From an uncultured Woeseiaceae bacterium (lineage in GTDB: Bacteria; Pseudomonadota; Gammaproteobacteria; Steroidobacterales; Woeseiaceae): a stretch of 55,905 nucleotides of DNA. The notes beneath the pieces were generated by a model. The model ran no database searches. It saw only the letters and a program-made list of their open reading frames with translations, and had not been told where the DNA came from. The position numbers and the translations under genes are program-made. The DNA lies in the NCBI GenBank assembly GCA_905480215.1, contig CAJQPL010000001.1:1-55905 (forward strand), read 5' to 3'. Positions 30,524 to 38,983 of the stretch are shown piece after piece. Position 1 is the first letter of the stretch, and every line of letters begins with the position of its first letter.

Positions 30524-32071
30524 ATGGCGGCTGAAACGAATAAACCTAGCCCCGACAAACCTAGCACCGACAAGAAGTCGAGCAAATCAACTGGTGTCTC
30601 CGGAATGACCGAACGCTTTGGCGCTCGCGAAAAGGACGGCGTAGTACGTTGTGATGCTTGCCCGGTGCTTTGCCGGATCAGACCGGAACGGTCCGGCGCT
30701 TGCGGGCGTTATGCGAACGTCGAAGGCGAACTCGTGCGTGTTGACCCACTGGTGCTTCTCGAAAACTCGCGCGATCCCGGCGTCGGGGTGGTCCCGTTTG
30801 AAGGCGCTGCGGCCGAATGGGGTGGCAACCTGGTTCAACAAGAGACGTTCGTTACCGCTATCGGCGCAGGTACAACTTATCCCGATTACAAGCCGGCGCC
30901 CTTTATTGTAGCTACACAATACGACGGCGTTGAAACTGTCACAGTGGTCAGTGAGGGTATCTTTTCGTATTGCGGTGTGAAGATCAAACTGGATACGGAT
31001 AAGTATCTCGGCGCTGAACAAGCCGATATCCTTTGCGATGGGCAACGTATTGGACACGTGACGACCGGTGAGTACGGGTCGCAGATGTTGTCCGTTGGAG
31101 GGGTCAATCACCTCACGGGCGGCAGCAAACGAGAGGGCAAGGTTACCTGCAATGCCATTATGGCGTTGTGTAACCGTCAGCCAGTCGAGCTTGTCGTTGC
31201 CGGAGGCAGTTCCGTGCGGGTGCAGGCAGGACATGCGCCCGTCATCGATGGCGTTACCGAGCAGCATATGCGTGTTGGTTGTGGCTCGGCAACAATTGGC
31301 ATCTTCGCGGAGCAGTGGCATGGCCATGTCGACGAAGTCATTGTCGTTGACGAACATATTACCGGGGTTCTGTCAGAGCATCAGGCCGGACGTTGTCTTG
31401 GCATGGAGCCCTCCGGGATTCGCGTATGCGGACGGCGCTCAACGCCCGGCCGATACTTCAACGTTGCCAATCCCGGGCAGGGCTGGGGTGGCACAGACAT
31501 TAGCGACCCGTTTTCTATAATTGAGTCAATCGATGATGCTGTTGCACGTCCAGGAAATCGGCTGTTGATGACCACTACAACGGGTGATGAAAGCATCTAT
31601 TGCGTCCTCGATGACAACTTGCGGCCAGTGGAGGCAGCGATGCCGGATGCGGTGCAAATTGTCGTGGACCGTATTCGGGAAAACTGCGAGCCCTCACTAT
31701 GCTCAGTGTTATTTGTTGCTGGTGCGGGCGGATCGTTGCGGGCCGGCGTCACCGATAATCCGGTGAGCCTGACCCGATCTGTCAAAGAGACGTTAACGCG
31801 GGTGACGATGGGCGGTGCGCCGGTCTATGTGTGGCCTGGTGGTGGTATCACGGTCATGGTCGATGTCACGCGTATGCCAGAAAGCTCTTTCGGTTATGTG
31901 CCGACACCAGCAATAGTAGCGCCAATAGAATTTACGTTACCGAGAGACCGATACGCTGCAATGGGCGGTCACGTTGACTATATTCAGTCACTGGAGGAAA
32001 TTCGCGATCACTACGGCGACAGTGCGCAGAGCAGTAGCTGGGACCCCAAGAACCCGTGGCCGCTGCAGTGA
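30524..32071 (+). CDS. hnr: 6-hydroxynicotinate reductase-like iron-sulfur flavoprotein
   Basis: A 515-residue protein of the family named for Eubacterium barkeri Hnr, which reduces 6-hydroxynicotinate to 1,4,5,6-tetrahydro-6-oxonicotinate. The N-terminus, after a low-complexity Lys/Pro/Ser stretch of about 27 residues, has a Cys cluster C43-x2-C46-x3-C50-x9-C60 (DACPVLC and SGACGRY), suited to one Fe-S centre. The E. barkeri enzyme has one 2Fe-2S and two 4Fe-4S clusters and covalent flavin. Other cysteines here are scattered, and a GCGSAT stretch (residues 252-257) faintly resembles the ApbE flavinylation motif. The ATG at 30524 lacks a good Shine-Dalgarno; an internal ATG at 30605 would remove the low-complexity part. 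The downstream enamidase strongly supports the function. Confidence 0.8.
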   Translation: MAAETNKPSPDKPSTDKKSSKSTGVSGMTERFGAREKDGVVRCDACPVLCRIRPERSGACGRYANVEGELVRVDPLVLLENSRDPGVGVVPFEGAAAEWGGNLVQQETFVTAIGAGTTYPDYKPAPFIVATQYDGVETVTVVSEGIFSYCGVKIKLDTDKYLGAEQADILCDGQRIGHVTTGEYGSQMLSVGGVNHLTGGSKREGKVTCNAIMALCNRQPVELVVAGGSSVRVQAGHAPVIDGVTEQHMRVGCGSATIGIFAEQWHGHVDEVIVVDEHITGVLSEHQAGRCLGMEPSGIRVCGRRSTPGRYFNVANPGQGWGGTDISDPFSIIESIDDAVARPGNRLLMTTTTGDESIYCVLDDNLRPVEAAMPDAVQIVVDRIRENCEPSLCSVLFVAGAGGSLRAGVTDNPVSLTRSVKETLTRVTMGGAPVYVWPGGGITVMVDVTRMPESSFGYVPTPAIVAPIEFTLPRDRYAAMGGHVDYIQSLEEIRDHYGDSAQSSSWDPKNPWPLQ

Positions 32072-32078
32072 TTTGCTC

Positions 32079-32993
32079 ATGAATTCGAGTGCACTTTGCG
32101 GTCTACCCGATGCTGCGGTTCAATCACGGTCGCCTGCACAGGTGCAACAGGTAATGCTATCCGGCAATCGTTTGCATTTGCAACACGGGCCAATCAACCT
32201 CGTTATCAAAGCGGTTGGCAGCACTGCGGGTGTGCAACGGGCGTATGCGCTTGCGACACAACGCATGGAAGGAATGCTGCAGGGACTGGTGGACAACCTC
32301 TCGTTGCTGCGATCGCCGCTGTGCATTGCAGACAATGCAAAGATAAACGACGCTACGTCGCGACGCATGATTTCAACCGTCAGGCAATTCAGAGACTGTT
32401 TTGTCACACCCATGGCGGCGGTCGCCGGCGCGGTCGCGGATGAGGTTCTGGCTGCGATGAAAAATGCCGACGGCCTGGATAGCGTTTTTGTTAACAACGG
32501 CGGCGATATCGCTCTGCACCTCGAGCCCGGCCAGAAAATGCGTGTTGGTATTGTACCTTGCCTCTCGACGGCGACAGCGGATGCATCAGTGGATATCAGC
32601 GCTGAGGATGGTGTTTGTGGGATCGCGACCAGCGGCTGGGACGGCCATTCAATGTCGCTGGGTATTGCCGATGCCGTGACTGTTCTCGCAAAAAATGCGG
32701 CGATTGCCGATGTGGCAGCGACGCTAATCGCGAATGAAGTCGATTGTGATGCTGAATGCATTGATCGGCGTCGGGCGCTGGACATTGATCCCGACAGTGA
32801 TCTCGGAGAAAGACTGGTCACCGTGGGTGTAGGGGCGTTGCACAAACAAGCAATTGATGGCGCTCTTGATCGCGGCGTGGGATTCGCCCGAAGCTTGATA
32901 GAGGAGTGCGAGCTTTACGGTGTCTTCATTTCTCTGCAAGGACGTAGTCGTTCGCTGGGTTGGTCATATGGAAATAAAGGAGTAGATTCGTAA
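32079..32993 (+). CDS. UPF0280 family protein (ApbE-like fold)
   Basis: About 304 residues. The frame opens at 31974, but the ATG at 32079, 8 bases after the reductase stop, is preferred. It contains SVFVNNGGDIALHL, GIATSGWDGHSMSLGIADAVTVLA and a DVAATL segment, which are features of UPF0280 and of the ApbE FMN-transferase superfamily (ApbE has a similar GGDxxxxG and GIATSG pair with a metal-binding Asp/Thr). Known ApbE proteins attach FMN to Ser/Thr of target proteins. The immediately upstream reductase belongs to a family with covalent flavin, so this could be its flavinyl transferase. No signal peptide, so cytoplasmic. Function is inference. Confidence 0.8.
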   Translation: MNSSALCGLPDAAVQSRSPAQVQQVMLSGNRLHLQHGPINLVIKAVGSTAGVQRAYALATQRMEGMLQGLVDNLSLLRSPLCIADNAKINDATSRRMISTVRQFRDCFVTPMAAVAGAVADEVLAAMKNADGLDSVFVNNGGDIALHLEPGQKMRVGIVPCLSTATADASVDISAEDGVCGIATSGWDGHSMSLGIADAVTVLAKNAAIADVAATLIANEVDCDAECIDRRRALDIDPDSDLGERLVTVGVGALHKQAIDGALDRGVGFARSLIEECELYGVFISLQGRSRSLGWSYGNKGVDS

Positions 32994-33574
32994 TGAGTTT
33001 TACTGTGCGGAAAATCGTTATTACACTGGATCGTTCAAGTCACGATTTTGGGCCACCCAAAGATGTGTCGTTACTGCTAGGTGGCATCTGTGGCGTGGTG
33101 AGTAACCCGTTCGCAGGCCGCCATGTCGAAATCCTGGAGCCTGCTATGAAAGATCTGGAGCCGCTCGGTCTGCAACTTGCCGGCGAATTATTGACAGCGA
33201 TGGACTGTGGGCCTGGTGACATCGAGGCGTATGGCAAAGGCAGCATTGTTGGCGCCAACGGCGAACTCGAGCATGGCGCGCTCTGGCATGCGCCGGGTGG
33301 TTACGGTATGCGTCAGGTGCTTGGCGATACACGGGCTATTGTTCCGTCCACAAAGAAGGTTGGGCCGGTCGGCGCCACAATCGACATTCCGCTGGCGCAT
33401 ACTAACGCCGCGTATGTGCGAAGTCATTTTCATACGTTAACGCTGCAAGTACCCGATGCGCCCAGACCGGACGAACTGGTATTTTGTTTGGCTATGGCGA
33501 CCGGTCCCCGCATCCACGCACGGATGGGTGGTTTGCAGGCAAACGATATTCTCGGCGAGGACGGTTTGCGATGA
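32993..33574 (+). CDS. AA_synth family protein, copy 1
   Basis: A 193-residue protein of Pfam AA_synth (DUF1185), starting one base inside the UPF0280 stop (TAATG). The family blocks are GGICGVVSNPFAGRHVE, YGKGSIVGANGELEHGAL, IVPSTKKVG and the C-terminal IDIPLAHTNAAYVRSH. About 45 percent of positions appear shared by eye with the next gene. The name reflects an old guess; the enzymatic role is not established. Position inside a reductive heterocycle operon points to a catabolic or maturation role. Confidence 0.85.
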   Translation: MSFTVRKIVITLDRSSHDFGPPKDVSLLLGGICGVVSNPFAGRHVEILEPAMKDLEPLGLQLAGELLTAMDCGPGDIEAYGKGSIVGANGELEHGALWHAPGGYGMRQVLGDTRAIVPSTKKVGPVGATIDIPLAHTNAAYVRSHFHTLTLQVPDAPRPDELVFCLAMATGPRIHARMGGLQANDILGEDGLR

Positions 33575-34155
33575 AGGCGAATATCCGAAAGATTCTGGTT
33601 GTTGTTGAGGACACCTGCCGCGAGATGGATCGTGTGGTCAATCCGGTGACGCGAAAAGCGGCGGCGTTCGCGGTGGTCGAGAATCCCTGTGCGGGGAAAT
33701 ATGTCGAAGACCTCGAGGATTTGATGCTAATTGGTGCAGAATTGGGTGATCTCCTCGGTCGTCGAGCCGTTGCTGCATTGGGAGTATCGCCGTCGGAAAT
33801 TGAGAGCTTTGGCAAGGCCGCTATCGTTGGTGCCGGCGGCGAGTTGGAGCACGCTGCGGCAATCCTGCATCCGCGTCTTGGCGCGCCACTGCGTTCGGCC
33901 GTGCAGCAAGGCGCTGCGCTGGTTCCGTCGTCAAAAAAAATGGGGGCCGCCGGCACATCGATTGATGTTCCACTCGGGCACAAGGATGCTGCTTATGTTC
34001 GCAGCCACTTTGATGCGATGGAGGTACGTCTGCACGATGGTCCCAGGGCTAATGAAATTTTGGTCGCGGTTGCCGTGACGGACAGCGGTCGACCGCTTCC
34101 TCGCGTTGGCGGACTAACACACGCGGATGCGGTCGGAAAAGATGGGCTTCGCTAG
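33571..34155 (+). CDS. AA_synth family protein, copy 2
   Basis: A 194-residue paralogue of the preceding gene, starting at the ATG that overlaps its stop by 4 bases (the frame is also open from 33484, but the homologous part begins with MKANIRKILVVVEDT). Shared blocks: VENPCAGKYVEDLEDL, FGKAAIVGAGGELEHAA, LVPSSKKMGAAGTSIDVPLGHKDAAYVRSH. The two copies differ most in their first 20 residues and just after the GELEH block, as expected for subunits of a hetero-oligomer. Function unknown. Confidence 0.85.
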   Translation: MKANIRKILVVVEDTCREMDRVVNPVTRKAAAFAVVENPCAGKYVEDLEDLMLIGAELGDLLGRRAVAALGVSPSEIESFGKAAIVGAGGELEHAAAILHPRLGAPLRSAVQQGAALVPSSKKMGAAGTSIDVPLGHKDAAYVRSHFDAMEVRLHDGPRANEILVAVAVTDSGRPLPRVGGLTHADAVGKDGLR

Positions 34156-34183: not shown

Positions 34184-35377
34184 GTGGACTCGTGGCAAGG
34201 ACAAGCAAATTCGCAAGGTAAACTTGTAATCCGGGGTATTGGATTATTACTGTCGGGTGATTTGGCGCAGCCAATTTTGGATGCGGATACGATTATCGCC
34301 GTTGATGGTGTAATCACCGATATTGGTCGCTACTCAGAGCTCAATGTTGAGGACGCTGACAGAGTGGTCAACGCAAACGGAACCTGCGTTGCACCGGGAC
34401 TGATTGATAGTCACGTGCATCCTGTAGTCGGCGACTGGACGCCGCGGCAAAACCAGATCGGCTGGATTGACAGCTTTCTCAATGGCGGGGTTACGACAAT
34501 GATTTCAGCCGGTGAAGTGCATTTGCCCGGCCGACCCAAAGATATTGTCGGCCTGAAAGCGCTGGCCATTACCGCACAACGCTCTTTTTCGTTACACCGA
34601 CCGGGCGGTGTCAAAGTGCATGCTGGCGCGCCGATCATCGAACAAGGCATGGAGGAACATGACTTCAAAGAACTGGCGGACGCCGGCGTAACGTTGCTCG
34701 GCGAAGTGGGACTGGGCGGCGTCAAGAGTGGTGAAGACGCTAAACAAATGGTTGCCTGGGCGCGAAAATACGGTATTCAAAGTACCATTCACACTGGCGG
34801 CCCTTCGATTCCGGGCTCCAGTCTTATCGACGCCGACGTTGTTCTTGAAGCCGATGCCGATGTCATCGGACACATCAATGGCGGGCCTACGGCGCTACCG
34901 ATTGAGCAGATTCGATGTCTTTGTGAGTCCTGTTCGCGAGCCGTCGAGATTGTGCACAACGGTAACGAAATTGCCGGGCTGTATGCGATGCGCACGACGA
35001 TAGAGCTCGATCAGGCTGAACGTATCAGTCTGGGAACGGACTCGCCGGCTGGTTCCGGAGTTCAACCACTCGGAATCCTGCGACTAGTCGCGATGCTTAG
35101 CTCGATGGGCAACGTAGCACCGGAGACTGTGTTCTGTTTTGCGACAGGCAACACCGCCCGGATTAGGGAGCTCAATTGCGGCTTGATCGAAATCGGTCGT
35201 GCGGCCGATTTTGTCATCATGGACCGTGCTCAACATTCTGCCGGTGACACGCTTCTCGATAGTGTGGCGTTAGGCGATCTGCCCGGTATCAGTATGGTCA
35301 TCATTGATGGTGTCGTTCGTTGCCAACGCTCGCGAAACACGCCACCCGCTGAAACGCTGGCGAGTCTAGAGGTATAA
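34184..35377 (+). CDS. ena: Enamidase (amidohydrolase family)
   Basis: A 397-residue amidohydrolase that strongly resembles E. barkeri enamidase, which opens 1,4,5,6-tetrahydro-6-oxonicotinate to 2-formylglutarate and ammonia. Landmarks: PGLIDSHVHPVVGDWTPRQ with the metal pair His77/His79, LNGGVTTMISAG, HLPGRPKD, GEVGLGG with Glu174, IHTGG (His203), IGHINGGPTA (His230), and GTDSPAG (Asp286). GTG start with a GGGAGGG-like purine run 14-20 bases upstream and AGGAAA closer in. Located after the two AA_synth genes and before the molybdenum hydroxylase genes. This is the most diagnostic gene of the pathway. Confidence 0.9.
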   Translation: MDSWQGQANSQGKLVIRGIGLLLSGDLAQPILDADTIIAVDGVITDIGRYSELNVEDADRVVNANGTCVAPGLIDSHVHPVVGDWTPRQNQIGWIDSFLNGGVTTMISAGEVHLPGRPKDIVGLKALAITAQRSFSLHRPGGVKVHAGAPIIEQGMEEHDFKELADAGVTLLGEVGLGGVKSGEDAKQMVAWARKYGIQSTIHTGGPSIPGSSLIDADVVLEADADVIGHINGGPTALPIEQIRCLCESCSRAVEIVHNGNEIAGLYAMRTTIELDQAERISLGTDSPAGSGVQPLGILRLVAMLSSMGNVAPETVFCFATGNTARIRELNCGLIEIGRAADFVIMDRAQHSAGDTLLDSVALGDLPGISMVIIDGVVRCQRSRNTPPAETLASLEV

Positions 35378-35387
35378 AGGGCGAGTC

Positions 35388-36236
35388 GTGCAGCAAAGTT
35401 ACGAACGTCCCGATAACCTCGATGAGGCACTAGCGCTCCTAGAGCAGAGTCCTCGGCAAGTACTTGCCGGTGGCACCGATGTCTACGCAGCTTTGGGCGA
35501 TCACAATAGCTTGACCCAGGTTCTCGACGTAACGGCAATTCCGGACTTGGCTGGTATTGAAGATGCAGGAGATCACTGGCGAATCGGGGCGTCCTCGACA
35601 TGGTCTGATGTGCTGGCTGCAAATTTACCCAAATCGTTTGATTGCCTGAAATTGGCGGCCCGCGAAGTGGGAGGAGTCCAAATTCAGAACGCCGGCACAA
35701 TTGCCGGTAATTTATGCAATGCATCGCCCGCGGCAGATGGTGTGCCGCCCTTAATGGCATTGAATGCCAGCGTGGAGCTGTCGTCGGCTAACGGTCGGCG
35801 GGTCGTGACTTTGCGGGACTTTATTACCGGACCGCGGCAGACCTTACTGGCTGGGACGGAATTGATGTCTGCAGTGCTGGTGCCTAAGTCCGGCGAGCGT
35901 AGCGTCAGTTCATTCCTGAAACTCGGATCGCGAAAATATCTGGTTATCTCGATTGCCATGGTTGCCGTGGTGCTTGAGCCGGGCAGCGACGATTCGATTG
36001 AGAACATCAGCATAAGCGTGGGATCGTGTTCGGCGGTCGCGTGTCGCTTACGTGACCTGGAAGCCGAGCTACAGGGATGCCGGTTGCGACAAATGAGTCG
36101 CTTGCCGCACGCGTCAAAATTCTTTGCGCCGCTATCGCCAATCGACGATATTCGGTCCAGTGGTCAGTATCGATTGGAGGCCACGGCGGAATTGGTGCGA
36201 CGAGCGATTCTTTTGTGCGTAGATGCACTGAAGTGA
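35388..36236 (+). CDS. Molybdenum hydroxylase FAD-binding subunit (CoxM-like)
   Basis: A 282-residue member of the xanthine-dehydrogenase FAD-subunit family. FAD-binding motifs are AGGTDVYAAL near residue 25-35 and NAGTIAGNLCNASPAADG (about 105-122). GTG start; its TGA overlaps the GTG of the next gene. It passes electrons from the molybdenum/Fe-S subunit to an acceptor. In this operon the enzyme probably hydroxylates nicotinate to 6-hydroxynicotinate, the first step before Hnr and enamidase. Confidence 0.88.
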   Translation: MQQSYERPDNLDEALALLEQSPRQVLAGGTDVYAALGDHNSLTQVLDVTAIPDLAGIEDAGDHWRIGASSTWSDVLAANLPKSFDCLKLAAREVGGVQIQNAGTIAGNLCNASPAADGVPPLMALNASVELSSANGRRVVTLRDFITGPRQTLLAGTELMSAVLVPKSGERSVSSFLKLGSRKYLVISIAMVAVVLEPGSDDSIENISISVGSCSAVACRLRDLEAELQGCRLRQMSRLPHASKFFAPLSPIDDIRSSGQYRLEATAELVRRAILLCVDALK

Positions 36237-38983
36237 GCACCTCAAGGATCAATTTTGAACTCAACGGCGAACCGGTCAGCGTTGGCGCAGTCGCAGGCAA
36301 GCGATTTTCGCAGGTGTTACGAGAAGAGCTTGGACTCACCGGTACCAAAGTTGGTTGCAATGCGGGTGACTGTGGCGCCTGCACAATTCTGCTCAACAAT
36401 AAGCCCGTTTGCGCCTGCATGATGGCTGCGCAACAGGCTGACGGTTGCAATATTGAAACCGTCGAAGGCCTGGAAAGTGGCCGCAGCGTTTTAAAAGGGA
36501 GACTTCAACAATCTTTCTTGCGACACGGTGCTGCTCAATGTGGGATATGCACGCCCGGCATGGTAGTTGCAGCCGAGGCGTTACTACGACTTACACCGCA
36601 TCCGAGTGAGCAGCAAGCGGAAAATGCTATTGGCGGAGTGTTGTGTCGCTGCACCGGGTATCGAAATATTATTCGCGCCATCGTCAACGCGAACGAGCAG
36701 GAAGAAACGTCAGCGCCGCATCCTGGTCCGAAAACCAGCTCGGTTGGTGCGCCGATCATCCGTTTGGATGGAGCACCGAAAGTCGCTGGTTCGGACCTGT
36801 TTGCAGCCGACGACTGGCCGGACGATGCCTTGCTTGCAAGAGCGATTCGCAGTCCTTATCCGCACGCCGCCTTTTCGTTTGGAGATCTCGACGAGTACGT
36901 AAACAACACGGATGAGGTGCTCGCCGTGTTTACAGCCAAGGACGTTCCGGGACGGAATTGCTTCGGCGTCATTCCGGAATTTGTCGACCAGCCGGTCTTC
37001 GCCGAATCCGAAACACGGTTTGAGGGTGAAGCCGTAGCACTTGTTGTCGGTACTGCTGACGCCATCGTTGCTCTGGATATCTCGAAGCTGCCGATAACGT
37101 GGCAAAAGCTGACAGACGTCACGACCGTGACTGAGGCTGCCGATGAACGTGCGCCGCAGCTACATACCGGGCGTGCGAATAATCGTTTGACCGGTGGATA
37201 TGTGGAAAGCGGCGACGTTGAATCCGGTTTCGAGGCTGCCGACGTCGTGGTGGAAGGCGCTTTCACAACCGGGTTTATCGAGCACGCCTACATCGAACCC
37301 GAAGCGGGTTTCGCACGACGCGTCGGCGATCGAATTGAAGTATGGGCCTGCACACAGGCGCCGTATATGGATAGGGACAGCCTGGCCGAGATTATGGGCA
37401 TCGCGAAAAACCAGGTCCGAATTATTCCGTCATCAGTAGGTGGGGGCTTCGGCTCCAAATTGGATCTGTCGTTGCAACCGTTTGTGGCGATCGCCGCGTG
37501 GCATTTGAAACGACCGGTAAAGATGGTGTATTCACGCACCGAATCGATGTTGTCGACGACGAAGCGCCATCCATCCAGTATTCAGTCCAGGATCGGCGCC
37601 AGCAAAGACGGCAAGATTACAGCGATGACGTTCGTCGGTGTGTTCAATACCGGCGCCTATGCGTCCTGGGGGCCAACCGTTGCCACCCGTGTGCCGATTC
37701 ATGCGTGCGGGCCATATCGTATTGAAAACTACCGCGCCGAATCTGCTGCAATACATACACATTGCCCTCCGTCGGGTGCCTTTCGAGGATTCGGCGTACC
37801 GCAATCTGCTGTTGCACAGGAAACACTGTTTGACCTTCTCGCTGAGCAATTGGCGATTGATCCGCTTGAATTTCGGATTCGCAATGCGCTTGCGAACGGA
37901 TTGCCAACGGTAACGGGACAAAGCTTTGATAGCGGCGTCGGCATTGTCGCGTGCTTTGAAGCTTTGCGGCCACACTGGCAGCAGGCCATTCGTAACGCTG
38001 CAATGCGTAACGAATCAGCGCACGGCACTGCGATGCGTTTCGGTGTTGGCATTGCGGGCTTGTGGTACGGATGTGGCAATACATCATTGCCCAATCCGTC
38101 GACTATACGGGTGGGATTGCGAGACGACGGGCGTATCGTTTTGTTTCAGGGGGCGGTCGATATCGGCCAGGGATCAAACACGGTTATTAGCCAGATTTGC
38201 GCGGATGCCATAGGAATTTCGATTGATTGTATTGATCTGGTTCATGGCGATACTGACCTAACAGCGGATGCCGGAAAAACGTCGGCATCAAGGCAAACGT
38301 TTATTTCCGGCAAGGCAGCATTTCTGGCTGGGAGCGTGTTGCGAAATAAGTTGCTCACAATATGCGATGCGCCACTATCGGCGCGTATACAACTGAACGG
38401 AAATACACTGCTTGCCTGTGAGGAAAATAGTACGTGGACGGTACAGCTTGATCGATTGCCGACTGATCAAGACGGCTTCGTTGCGACGGCTGAAGAGACA
38501 TACGATCCGCCGACACAGCCGCTCGACAAGGATGGTCAGGGAGAACCTTATGCTTCATTTGGTTACGGCGCACAGATAGTTGAATTGTCCGTAGATACTG
38601 CCCTCGGAATAACCAAGCTCACTAAAGTCACCGCCGCCCACGATGCTGGAAAAGTCATAAATCCTGTACTTGCAGAAGGTCAGGTTCACGGTGGTGTTGC
38701 GCAGGGGATCGGGATGGCATTAATGGAAGAATTTGTACCTGGAAAGACCAACAATCTCCACGATTACCTGATTCCGACCGCCGGTGATGTGCCGGAGATC
38801 GAAACGCTGTTTATCGAAGATGCGGACCCACATGGTCCTTACGGTGCTAAAGGTTTGGGTGAGCACGTGCTTGTCGGAACAGCGCCGGCGATTCTGAACG
38901 CCATCCGGCATGCAACCGGCGCGGTGATCCGTGATCTGCCAGCGAGCCCGGAGCGAGTATTGGCTGCCATAAGATTCGACTGA
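36233..38983 (+). CDS. Fused [2Fe-2S]-molybdopterin hydroxylase subunit (CoxS-CoxL fusion)
   Basis: About 916 residues from the GTG at 36233, whose GTGA overlaps the FAD-subunit stop (the longer open frame from 36077 is not needed). The first 160 residues hold the two [2Fe-2S] clusters: CNAGDCGAC with a later Cys, then CGICTPG and CRCTGYRN. A short linker leads to the xanthine-dehydrogenase molybdopterin domains: SVGGGFGSKLD, SGAFRGFGVPQ, AVDIGQGSNT, and the catalytic Glu877 in GAKGLGE. In E. barkeri nicotinate dehydrogenase these functions sit on separate chains, so the fusion is notable. It is the last gene of the heterocycle operon. Confidence 0.9.
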   Translation: MSTSRINFELNGEPVSVGAVAGKRFSQVLREELGLTGTKVGCNAGDCGACTILLNNKPVCACMMAAQQADGCNIETVEGLESGRSVLKGRLQQSFLRHGAAQCGICTPGMVVAAEALLRLTPHPSEQQAENAIGGVLCRCTGYRNIIRAIVNANEQEETSAPHPGPKTSSVGAPIIRLDGAPKVAGSDLFAADDWPDDALLARAIRSPYPHAAFSFGDLDEYVNNTDEVLAVFTAKDVPGRNCFGVIPEFVDQPVFAESETRFEGEAVALVVGTADAIVALDISKLPITWQKLTDVTTVTEAADERAPQLHTGRANNRLTGGYVESGDVESGFEAADVVVEGAFTTGFIEHAYIEPEAGFARRVGDRIEVWACTQAPYMDRDSLAEIMGIAKNQVRIIPSSVGGGFGSKLDLSLQPFVAIAAWHLKRPVKMVYSRTESMLSTTKRHPSSIQSRIGASKDGKITAMTFVGVFNTGAYASWGPTVATRVPIHACGPYRIENYRAESAAIHTHCPPSGAFRGFGVPQSAVAQETLFDLLAEQLAIDPLEFRIRNALANGLPTVTGQSFDSGVGIVACFEALRPHWQQAIRNAAMRNESAHGTAMRFGVGIAGLWYGCGNTSLPNPSTIRVGLRDDGRIVLFQGAVDIGQGSNTVISQICADAIGISIDCIDLVHGDTDLTADAGKTSASRQTFISGKAAFLAGSVLRNKLLTICDAPLSARIQLNGNTLLACEENSTWTVQLDRLPTDQDGFVATAEETYDPPTQPLDKDGQGEPYASFGYGAQIVELSVDTALGITKLTKVTAAHDAGKVINPVLAEGQVHGGVAQGIGMALMEEFVPGKTNNLHDYLIPTAGDVPEIETLFIEDADPHGPYGAKGLGEHVLVGTAPAILNAIRHATGAVIRDLPASPERVLAAIRFD

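Follow-up and report, generated by a model that had tools for sequence, protein, structure and literature searches.

The window examined here, a stretch of 55,905 nucleotides from an uncultured Woeseiaceae bacterium, encodes on its forward strand a protein resembling 6-hydroxynicotinate reductase (Hnr), whose gene is followed after 7 nt, by the coordinates of the open reading frames, by a gene of the UPF0280 family (COG2122). The initial annotation had placed the two genes within 8 bases of each other and proposed that the UPF0280 protein is a dedicated flavinyl transferase of the reductase. The gap agrees with that description, as do the positions of the motifs NNGGDIAL and GIATSG (UPF0280 residues 139-146 and 181-186) and GCGSAT (Hnr residues 252-257). 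The features on which the argument rests are the following.

30524..32071, + strand: hnr, an open reading frame of 515 residues; 6-hydroxynicotinate reductase-like protein
30650..30703, + strand: Hnr motif C43-x2-C46-x3-C50-x9-C60; all four Cys invariant in 25/25 aligned Hnr
31277..31294, + strand: GCGSAT, Hnr residues 252-257; GCGSA invariant, T257 variable
32079..32993, + strand: UPF0280 / COG2122 gene, ATG at 32079, 304 residues; NF003322 subfamily, Hnr-linked
32493..32516, + strand: NNGGDIAL, UPF0280 residues 139-146; ApbE-type GG motif, GGD in 30/30 rows
32619..32648, + strand: GIATSGWDGH, UPF0280 residues 181-190; the TSG serine of ApbE aligns with S185-G186
32709..32723, + strand: UPF0280 D211-x3-T215 in 30/30 rows; counterparts in the alignment are the Asp of ApbE and a Thr close to it

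The Hnr of the window is 41% identical to that of Eubacterium barkeri (L040:1830-3329), and this homology, together with the adjoining enamidase and dehydrogenase genes, identifies it as a 6-hydroxynicotinate reductase. Because of this identity, the gene cluster is assigned to nicotinate breakdown by the reductive route. The E. barkeri enzyme was reportedly described by Alhapel et al. in 2006 as containing one [2Fe-2S] and two [4Fe-4S] clusters together with a covalently bound flavin. A Pfam search of the window's protein returned no family above cut-off. Its AlphaFold model is fair, with a predicted local distance difference test score (pLDDT) of 84.1; a structure search with this model gave no match in the PDB at E 0.001 (best 0.048), and there were only weak hints of a GcvT C-terminal barrel. 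The four Cys that are invariant in the Hnr alignment (A1; 25 rows, comprising 17 of the 32 Pseudomonadota proteins and 8 others) probably form an Fe-S site. All 30 Pseudomonadota hnr loci tested, the window (L002) included, lack the Cys motif of the Fer4 ferredoxin domain throughout the open frame; the domain or its Cys motif is present in Hnr of E. barkeri, of the other Bacillota and of L049. The electron donor of the window's and the other Pseudomonadota enzymes must therefore differ from that of E. barkeri.

A search of 398 Pseudomonadota genomes revealed a strong Hnr match in 32, and the identical 32 genomes contain a protein scoring over the cut-off of the NF003322 model of UPF0280, which was found in none of the 366 genomes without a strong Hnr match. 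Underlying these counts are Hnr matches at E 0.001 in 35 genomes (the 32 strong ones, one of them split in two, and three weak ones of 19-22 bits that were set aside) and NF003322 matches in 34 genomes (the 32 over cut-off and two weak ones of 20-22 bits, likewise set aside). In each of the 32 genomes the two genes share a contig and a strand and are no more than about 500 bases apart. At G016:C1:2969751-2971258, hnr matches as two adjacent pieces, which corresponds to a frameshift or a split gene.

Outside Pseudomonadota, named genomes were searched with the E. barkeri enamidase and thus without selection for UPF0280. The 11 loci obtained comprise nine from Bacillota, one from a Deltaproteobacterium and one distant amidohydrolase (L050). 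UPF0280 adjoins hnr in all nine Bacillota, including E. barkeri, where it comes after hnr, and in the Deltaproteobacterium. In a sample of 99 genomes from the phylum of that Deltaproteobacterium, 16 have Hnr and the identical 16 have the Hnr-type UPF0280, with neither occurring alone; three weak UPF0280 hits (about 20 bits) and Hnr hits that reach at most 25 bits and span just the Cys region were set aside. The types of UPF0280 were separated by the extent of the match, which reaches model position 272-280 in the Hnr-type and 238 at most in the other, because their scores nearly touch (206.7 bits for the weakest Hnr-type protein versus 203.3 bits for the best of the other type).

The gene order follows the same pattern. 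In 27 of 29 gene neighbourhoods hnr is directly followed by the UPF0280 gene, while the enamidase and dehydrogenase genes shift in place and strand and hgd shifts in place. The two exceptions are L044, where hnr is cut off by the contig end and continues, together with UPF0280, on a second contig (L053), and a second hnr copy in genome G431 (L124). The sampled genomes are related, so that Fisher values for the co-occurrence overstate their independence, and the case rests on the exact match across separate groups and on the gene order. These observations support the Hnr-linked UPF0280 subfamily as a dedicated partner of Hnr, encoded in the same operon, in the three groups sampled. A literature search found no paper that, in the portions of text available, ties UPF0280 or COG2122 to Hnr.

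The window's UPF0280 protein matches NF003322 (PRK04334.1-2) with 323 bits, over the curated cut-off of 290, and its best match in the PDB is 2O34. AlphaFold gave a model of good quality for it (pLDDT 89.3, predicted template modelling score 0.89). A Foldseek search with this model returned two chains of 2O34 first and then, at ranks 3-35, solely ApbE, FmnB and Ftp structures (E 7.1e-5 to 3.5e-2, probability 0.75-1.00), yet with whole-chain template modelling scores of only 0.30-0.47. An alignment of 30 UPF0280 rows (A2; 27 Hnr-linked and only three COG1900-linked) was compared by hhalign with 13 ApbE rows, which remained from 25 loci after a frame had been picked for 17 and three wrong frames and one near copy had been excluded; the match has a probability of 97 and an E value of 9.8e-11 over 96 columns. 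Against the Pfam ApbE model (PF02424, cut-off 25.6) the window's protein alone reaches 20 bits, which is under the cut-off, and that of E. barkeri reaches 29.3, which is over it. By predicted fold and by profile, UPF0280 is placed in the ApbE superfamily, which backs the superfamily signatures that had been recognized in the initial annotation. S185, D211, T215 and the GGD triplet are all retained in 30/30 rows; in ApbE, Ser241, His257 and Asp285 are given as conserved in the pertinent section of a review (PMC12052999).

A PF02424 search, which could miss a divergent copy and from which UPF0280 genes matching the ApbE model were excluded, found no ordinary ApbE in 22 of the 57 genomes with the hnr-UPF0280 pair: 18 have no PF02424 match at all and four match only via UPF0280 itself. 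By group, these are 12/32 Pseudomonadota (all recorded as 100% complete), 1/9 Bacillota and 9/16 of the third group.

We propose that the Hnr-linked UPF0280 is dedicated to the maturation of Hnr and most likely serves as its flavin transferase, and assign this reading a probability of about 0.5. The protein would act in the cytosol, where it would split flavin adenine dinucleotide (FAD), or use flavin mononucleotide (FMN), and link the flavin to one of the residues that are invariant in Hnr. A strongly hydrophobic N-terminus occurs in 2/30 UPF0280 rows versus 9/13 ApbE rows; characterised ApbE enzymes are mostly secreted, and cytosolic ones exist, as stated in part of the review (PMC12052999).

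A number of findings weigh against a role as flavin transferase. UPF0280 shares with ApbE, FmnB and Ftp (PF02424) the fold, the GG motif, the TSG serine and the D-x3-T element, whereas it is shorter, rarely has a hydrophobic N-terminus, and lacks by profile the flavin-binding half: the homology detected by hhalign is confined to the catalytic half, and the flavin-binding-half motifs G-x-[FI]-D and [AG]-K-G-[YFW] each occur in 1/30 UPF0280 rows versus 13/13 ApbE rows. Extending the alignment by one residue would bring the Lys present in 13/13 ApbE rows onto an Ala that is invariant in UPF0280. The His motif H-x-[IL]-[DN]-P-x-x-G is found in 0/30 UPF0280 rows versus 13/13 ApbE rows, and at residue 190, which neighbours the ApbE His, 26 of the 27 Hnr-linked rows have Arg. 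The target motif of ApbE, D-x-x-[ST]-G-A-[ST] (PMC12052999, in the section on targets), occurs in 0/25 Hnr, so that Hnr does not look like a partner of a canonical ApbE. An ordinary ApbE is present in 35 of the 57 pair genomes, among them those of E. barkeri and of the window. At L124 (G431:C240), hnr and enamidase genes have no UPF0280 alongside, and one Hnr-type UPF0280 is located elsewhere in that genome. Finally, a sister subfamily of COG2122 is tied to homocysteine synthesis or sulfide assimilation, and no flavin is mentioned in the passages concerned of that homocysteine work.

The window's protein is the lone exception at position 190, with a His (H190, 32646-32648) where the other Hnr-linked rows have Arg; in the hhalign alignment, H190 and the ApbE His do not coincide.

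Since UPF0280 keeps the Ser, Asp and Thr but lacks the Lys, the flavin-binding-half motifs and mostly the His, the residue comparisons indicate a superfamily member that is not a canonical ApbE transferase. The flavinyl transferase suggested by the initial annotation thus retains the Hnr partnership, the superfamily membership and the 22 genomes without ordinary ApbE on its side, and has against it the missing flavin-binding half, the missing Lys and the mostly missing His. The idea is sound as a hypothesis, with stronger support than the sequence alone had offered, and two of the reasons given for it were wrong. As UPF0280 has neither the flavin-binding half nor the invariant Lys nor the usual His base, Hnr itself would probably complete the active site, and an active site completed by the partner would explain why each UPF0280 subfamily has one partner.

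The acceptor residue was sought in the GCGSAT stretch, which had been read as loosely resembling the ApbE target; this is one of the two reasons that failed. V-G-C-G-S-A-T fits only two of the five fixed positions of the target motif (A and T), and residue 257 varies (T in 23, S in L049 and A in L027 among the 25 aligned Hnr), so that GCGSAT was rejected as an ApbE target motif. It is located at the start of a helix predicted at residues 254-265 (DSSP of the Hnr model), a position that would suit phosphate binding as well. S255 of the invariant GCGSA remains one candidate acceptor among about a dozen invariant Ser/Thr of Hnr.

Downstream of the pair, the nicotinate cluster continues with the following genes.

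32993..33574, + strand: PF06684 AA_synth protein 1 (Pfam); by neighbourhood comparison usually next to UPF0280 in nicotinate clusters
33571..34155, + strand: PF06684 AA_synth protein 2 (Pfam; neighbourhood comparison)
34184..35377, + strand: amidohydrolase, enamidase orthologue; 3.5e-111 to PDB 2VUN (E. barkeri enamidase)
35388..36236, + strand: FAD subunit of a molybdenum hydroxylase (PF00941, PF03450); probably nicotinate dehydrogenase, the substrate being suggested by the cluster
36077..38983, + strand: fused [2Fe-2S] and molybdopterin subunit of the same hydroxylase (PF01799, PF02738, PF20256)

The two PF06684 'amino acid synthesis' proteins encoded in tandem (32993-34155) perhaps perform a missing nicotinate step. 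The cluster shares with that of E. barkeri (hnr, ena, ndhFSLM) the hnr-UPF0280 pair, the enamidase, the dehydrogenase and a PF06684 gene, and differs from it in gene order, in an Hnr without ferredoxin domain, and in having two PF06684 genes. In the window a single hydroxylase subunit combines the Fe-S and Mo domains, whereas E. barkeri has a separate small subunit and two Mo subunits. The UPF0280 protein of E. barkeri scores 179.8 bits with NF003322, below the cut-off of 290. Proteobacterial nicotinate clusters have been described for Azorhizobium and Bradyrhizobiaceae SG-6C (PMC3511419), and no flavin link is drawn in the relevant part of that paper.

The view of UPF0280 as a family without an established function, the second of the reasons that failed, was wrong because of published work on COG2122 and MA1715 in homocysteine and sulfur metabolism. 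Price et al., where they treat COG2122, give genetic evidence that homocysteine synthesis in Desulfovibrio needs it, and refer to Rauch and colleagues on a role involving persulfide. In the text available of a 2025 paper (PMC12068725) MA1715 is called a sulfur trafficking protein, and part of a proteomics study (PMC9431491) reports that the COG2122 protein of Methanococcus voltae has a Cys cluster close to its C terminus. These proteins (COG2122, MA1715, DvMF_0044, DVU1097 with PDB 2O34) are of the same family and fold as the window's protein and likewise have a reductive Fe-S system as partner, but they form a separate subfamily that is not always beside its partner. This second subfamily is shorter and scores best with NF003323 (three rows), the Hnr-linked one scoring best with NF003322. 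Positions A233 and D241, in a region of uncertain alignment, distinguish 27/27 Hnr-linked from 0/3 COG1900-linked rows. Only three COG1900-linked rows are in the alignment, and statements on this type are therefore thin.

In L062-L064 the second subfamily adjoins COG1900 (PF01837) and NIL-ferredoxin genes. Among the 11 genomes from the enamidase search, a second UPF0280 copy is found in exactly the three that have PF01837 (G400, G401 and G407), and each of the two control genomes, Methanocaldococcus jannaschii and Methanosarcina acetivorans, has matches to both models. Within the 99-genome sample, PF01837 occurs in 66 genomes and the second-type UPF0280 in 66, with 62 in common and 4 + 4 exceptions; when either partner is counted, three genomes have UPF0280 and neither partner (L120-L122), and three have PF01837 and only a 20-bit UPF0280 hit. 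The control Synechococcus elongatus has PF01837 and no UPF0280 match, and therefore cyanobacterial COG1900 may work without UPF0280. The genome survey proposed with the initial annotation had been expected to pair UPF0280 with Hnr and to find it lacking elsewhere. The pairing held, in the same 32/398 and 16/99 genomes, and the exclusiveness did not: UPF0280 also stands beside COG1900 and NIL-ferredoxin genes without Hnr, which rules out that it goes only with Hnr.

Hnr and the COG1900/NIL-ferredoxin system are two Fe-S reductase systems with no detectable mutual relation. Homology between Hnr and COG1900 was rejected, as profile comparison found nothing with either 3 or 15 COG1900 rows, and a common chemistry is therefore put forward as a proposal only. 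An [IV]-G-x-G-[ST] word, resembling the GCGSA region of Hnr, is found in 15/15 COG1900 proteins (L064-L078); it lacks profile support and is mentioned as a curiosity. The proposal is that UPF0280 proteins are cytosolic, partner-specific flavin transferases for both Hnr and the COG1900/NIL-ferredoxin homocysteine synthase, that MA1715 would install a flavin that has escaped notice, and that the partners would supply the base and part of the flavin pocket. We advance this extension tentatively, as it is rather doubtful.

Of the alternatives to flavin transfer, the one that survives best is that UPF0280 is a sulfur or Fe-S factor that loads clusters or sulfur onto Fe-S reductases (Hnr and COG1900/NIL-ferredoxin), as proposed for MA1715. 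It draws on the genetics and proposals published, as far as those texts extend, for the COG2122 sister subfamily, on the position of the sister gene beside NIL/ferredoxin and COG1900 genes in L062-L064, on the C-terminal Cys cluster reported in M. voltae (PMC9431491, in part), and on the fact that both partners are Fe-S systems, with the invariant four-Cys motif in Hnr. It is, however, an unlikely explanation, as no Cys is conserved across the 30 UPF0280 rows (at most 9/30 in any column), the fold is that of flavin transferases according to Foldseek, and sulfur chemistry by Hnr is not known.

A second alternative, which ranks after it and appears improbable too, is that UPF0280 belongs to the active reductase as a subunit that holds a non-covalent flavin or carries electrons, and is not a modifying enzyme. 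The one-to-one co-occurrence with Hnr, the loss of ApbE catalytic residues and the overlap of the two genes by 4 or 1 bases in 14/40 rows (with starts chosen by script) are consistent with a subunit, and the 30/30 Pseudomonadota loci whose Hnr has no ferredoxin domain leave an electron donor missing. E. barkeri Hnr, however, retains this domain yet has UPF0280, the genome with two hnr copies has a single Hnr-type UPF0280, and the catalytic-type Ser, Asp and Thr are kept. That Hnr binds its flavin unaided, with UPF0280 performing another step of nicotinate breakdown or recycling flavin, agrees with the formation of ring-linked covalent flavins without a transferase (PMC12052999, in the part concerned) and with the lack of an ApbE target motif in Hnr, but is very unlikely, since the other subfamily serves a non-nicotinate pathway, which makes a nicotinate-specific substrate unlikely, and since hnr alone, among the genes of the cluster that were compared, keeps its place beside UPF0280.

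If the Hnr-linked UPF0280 is the flavin transferase of Hnr, a family of unknown chemistry gains a concrete and testable role, and a probable maker is named for the covalent flavin of an Fe-S reductase without obvious export signal. It would also offer a new reading of the COG2122 gene that is needed for homocysteine synthesis in Desulfovibrio.

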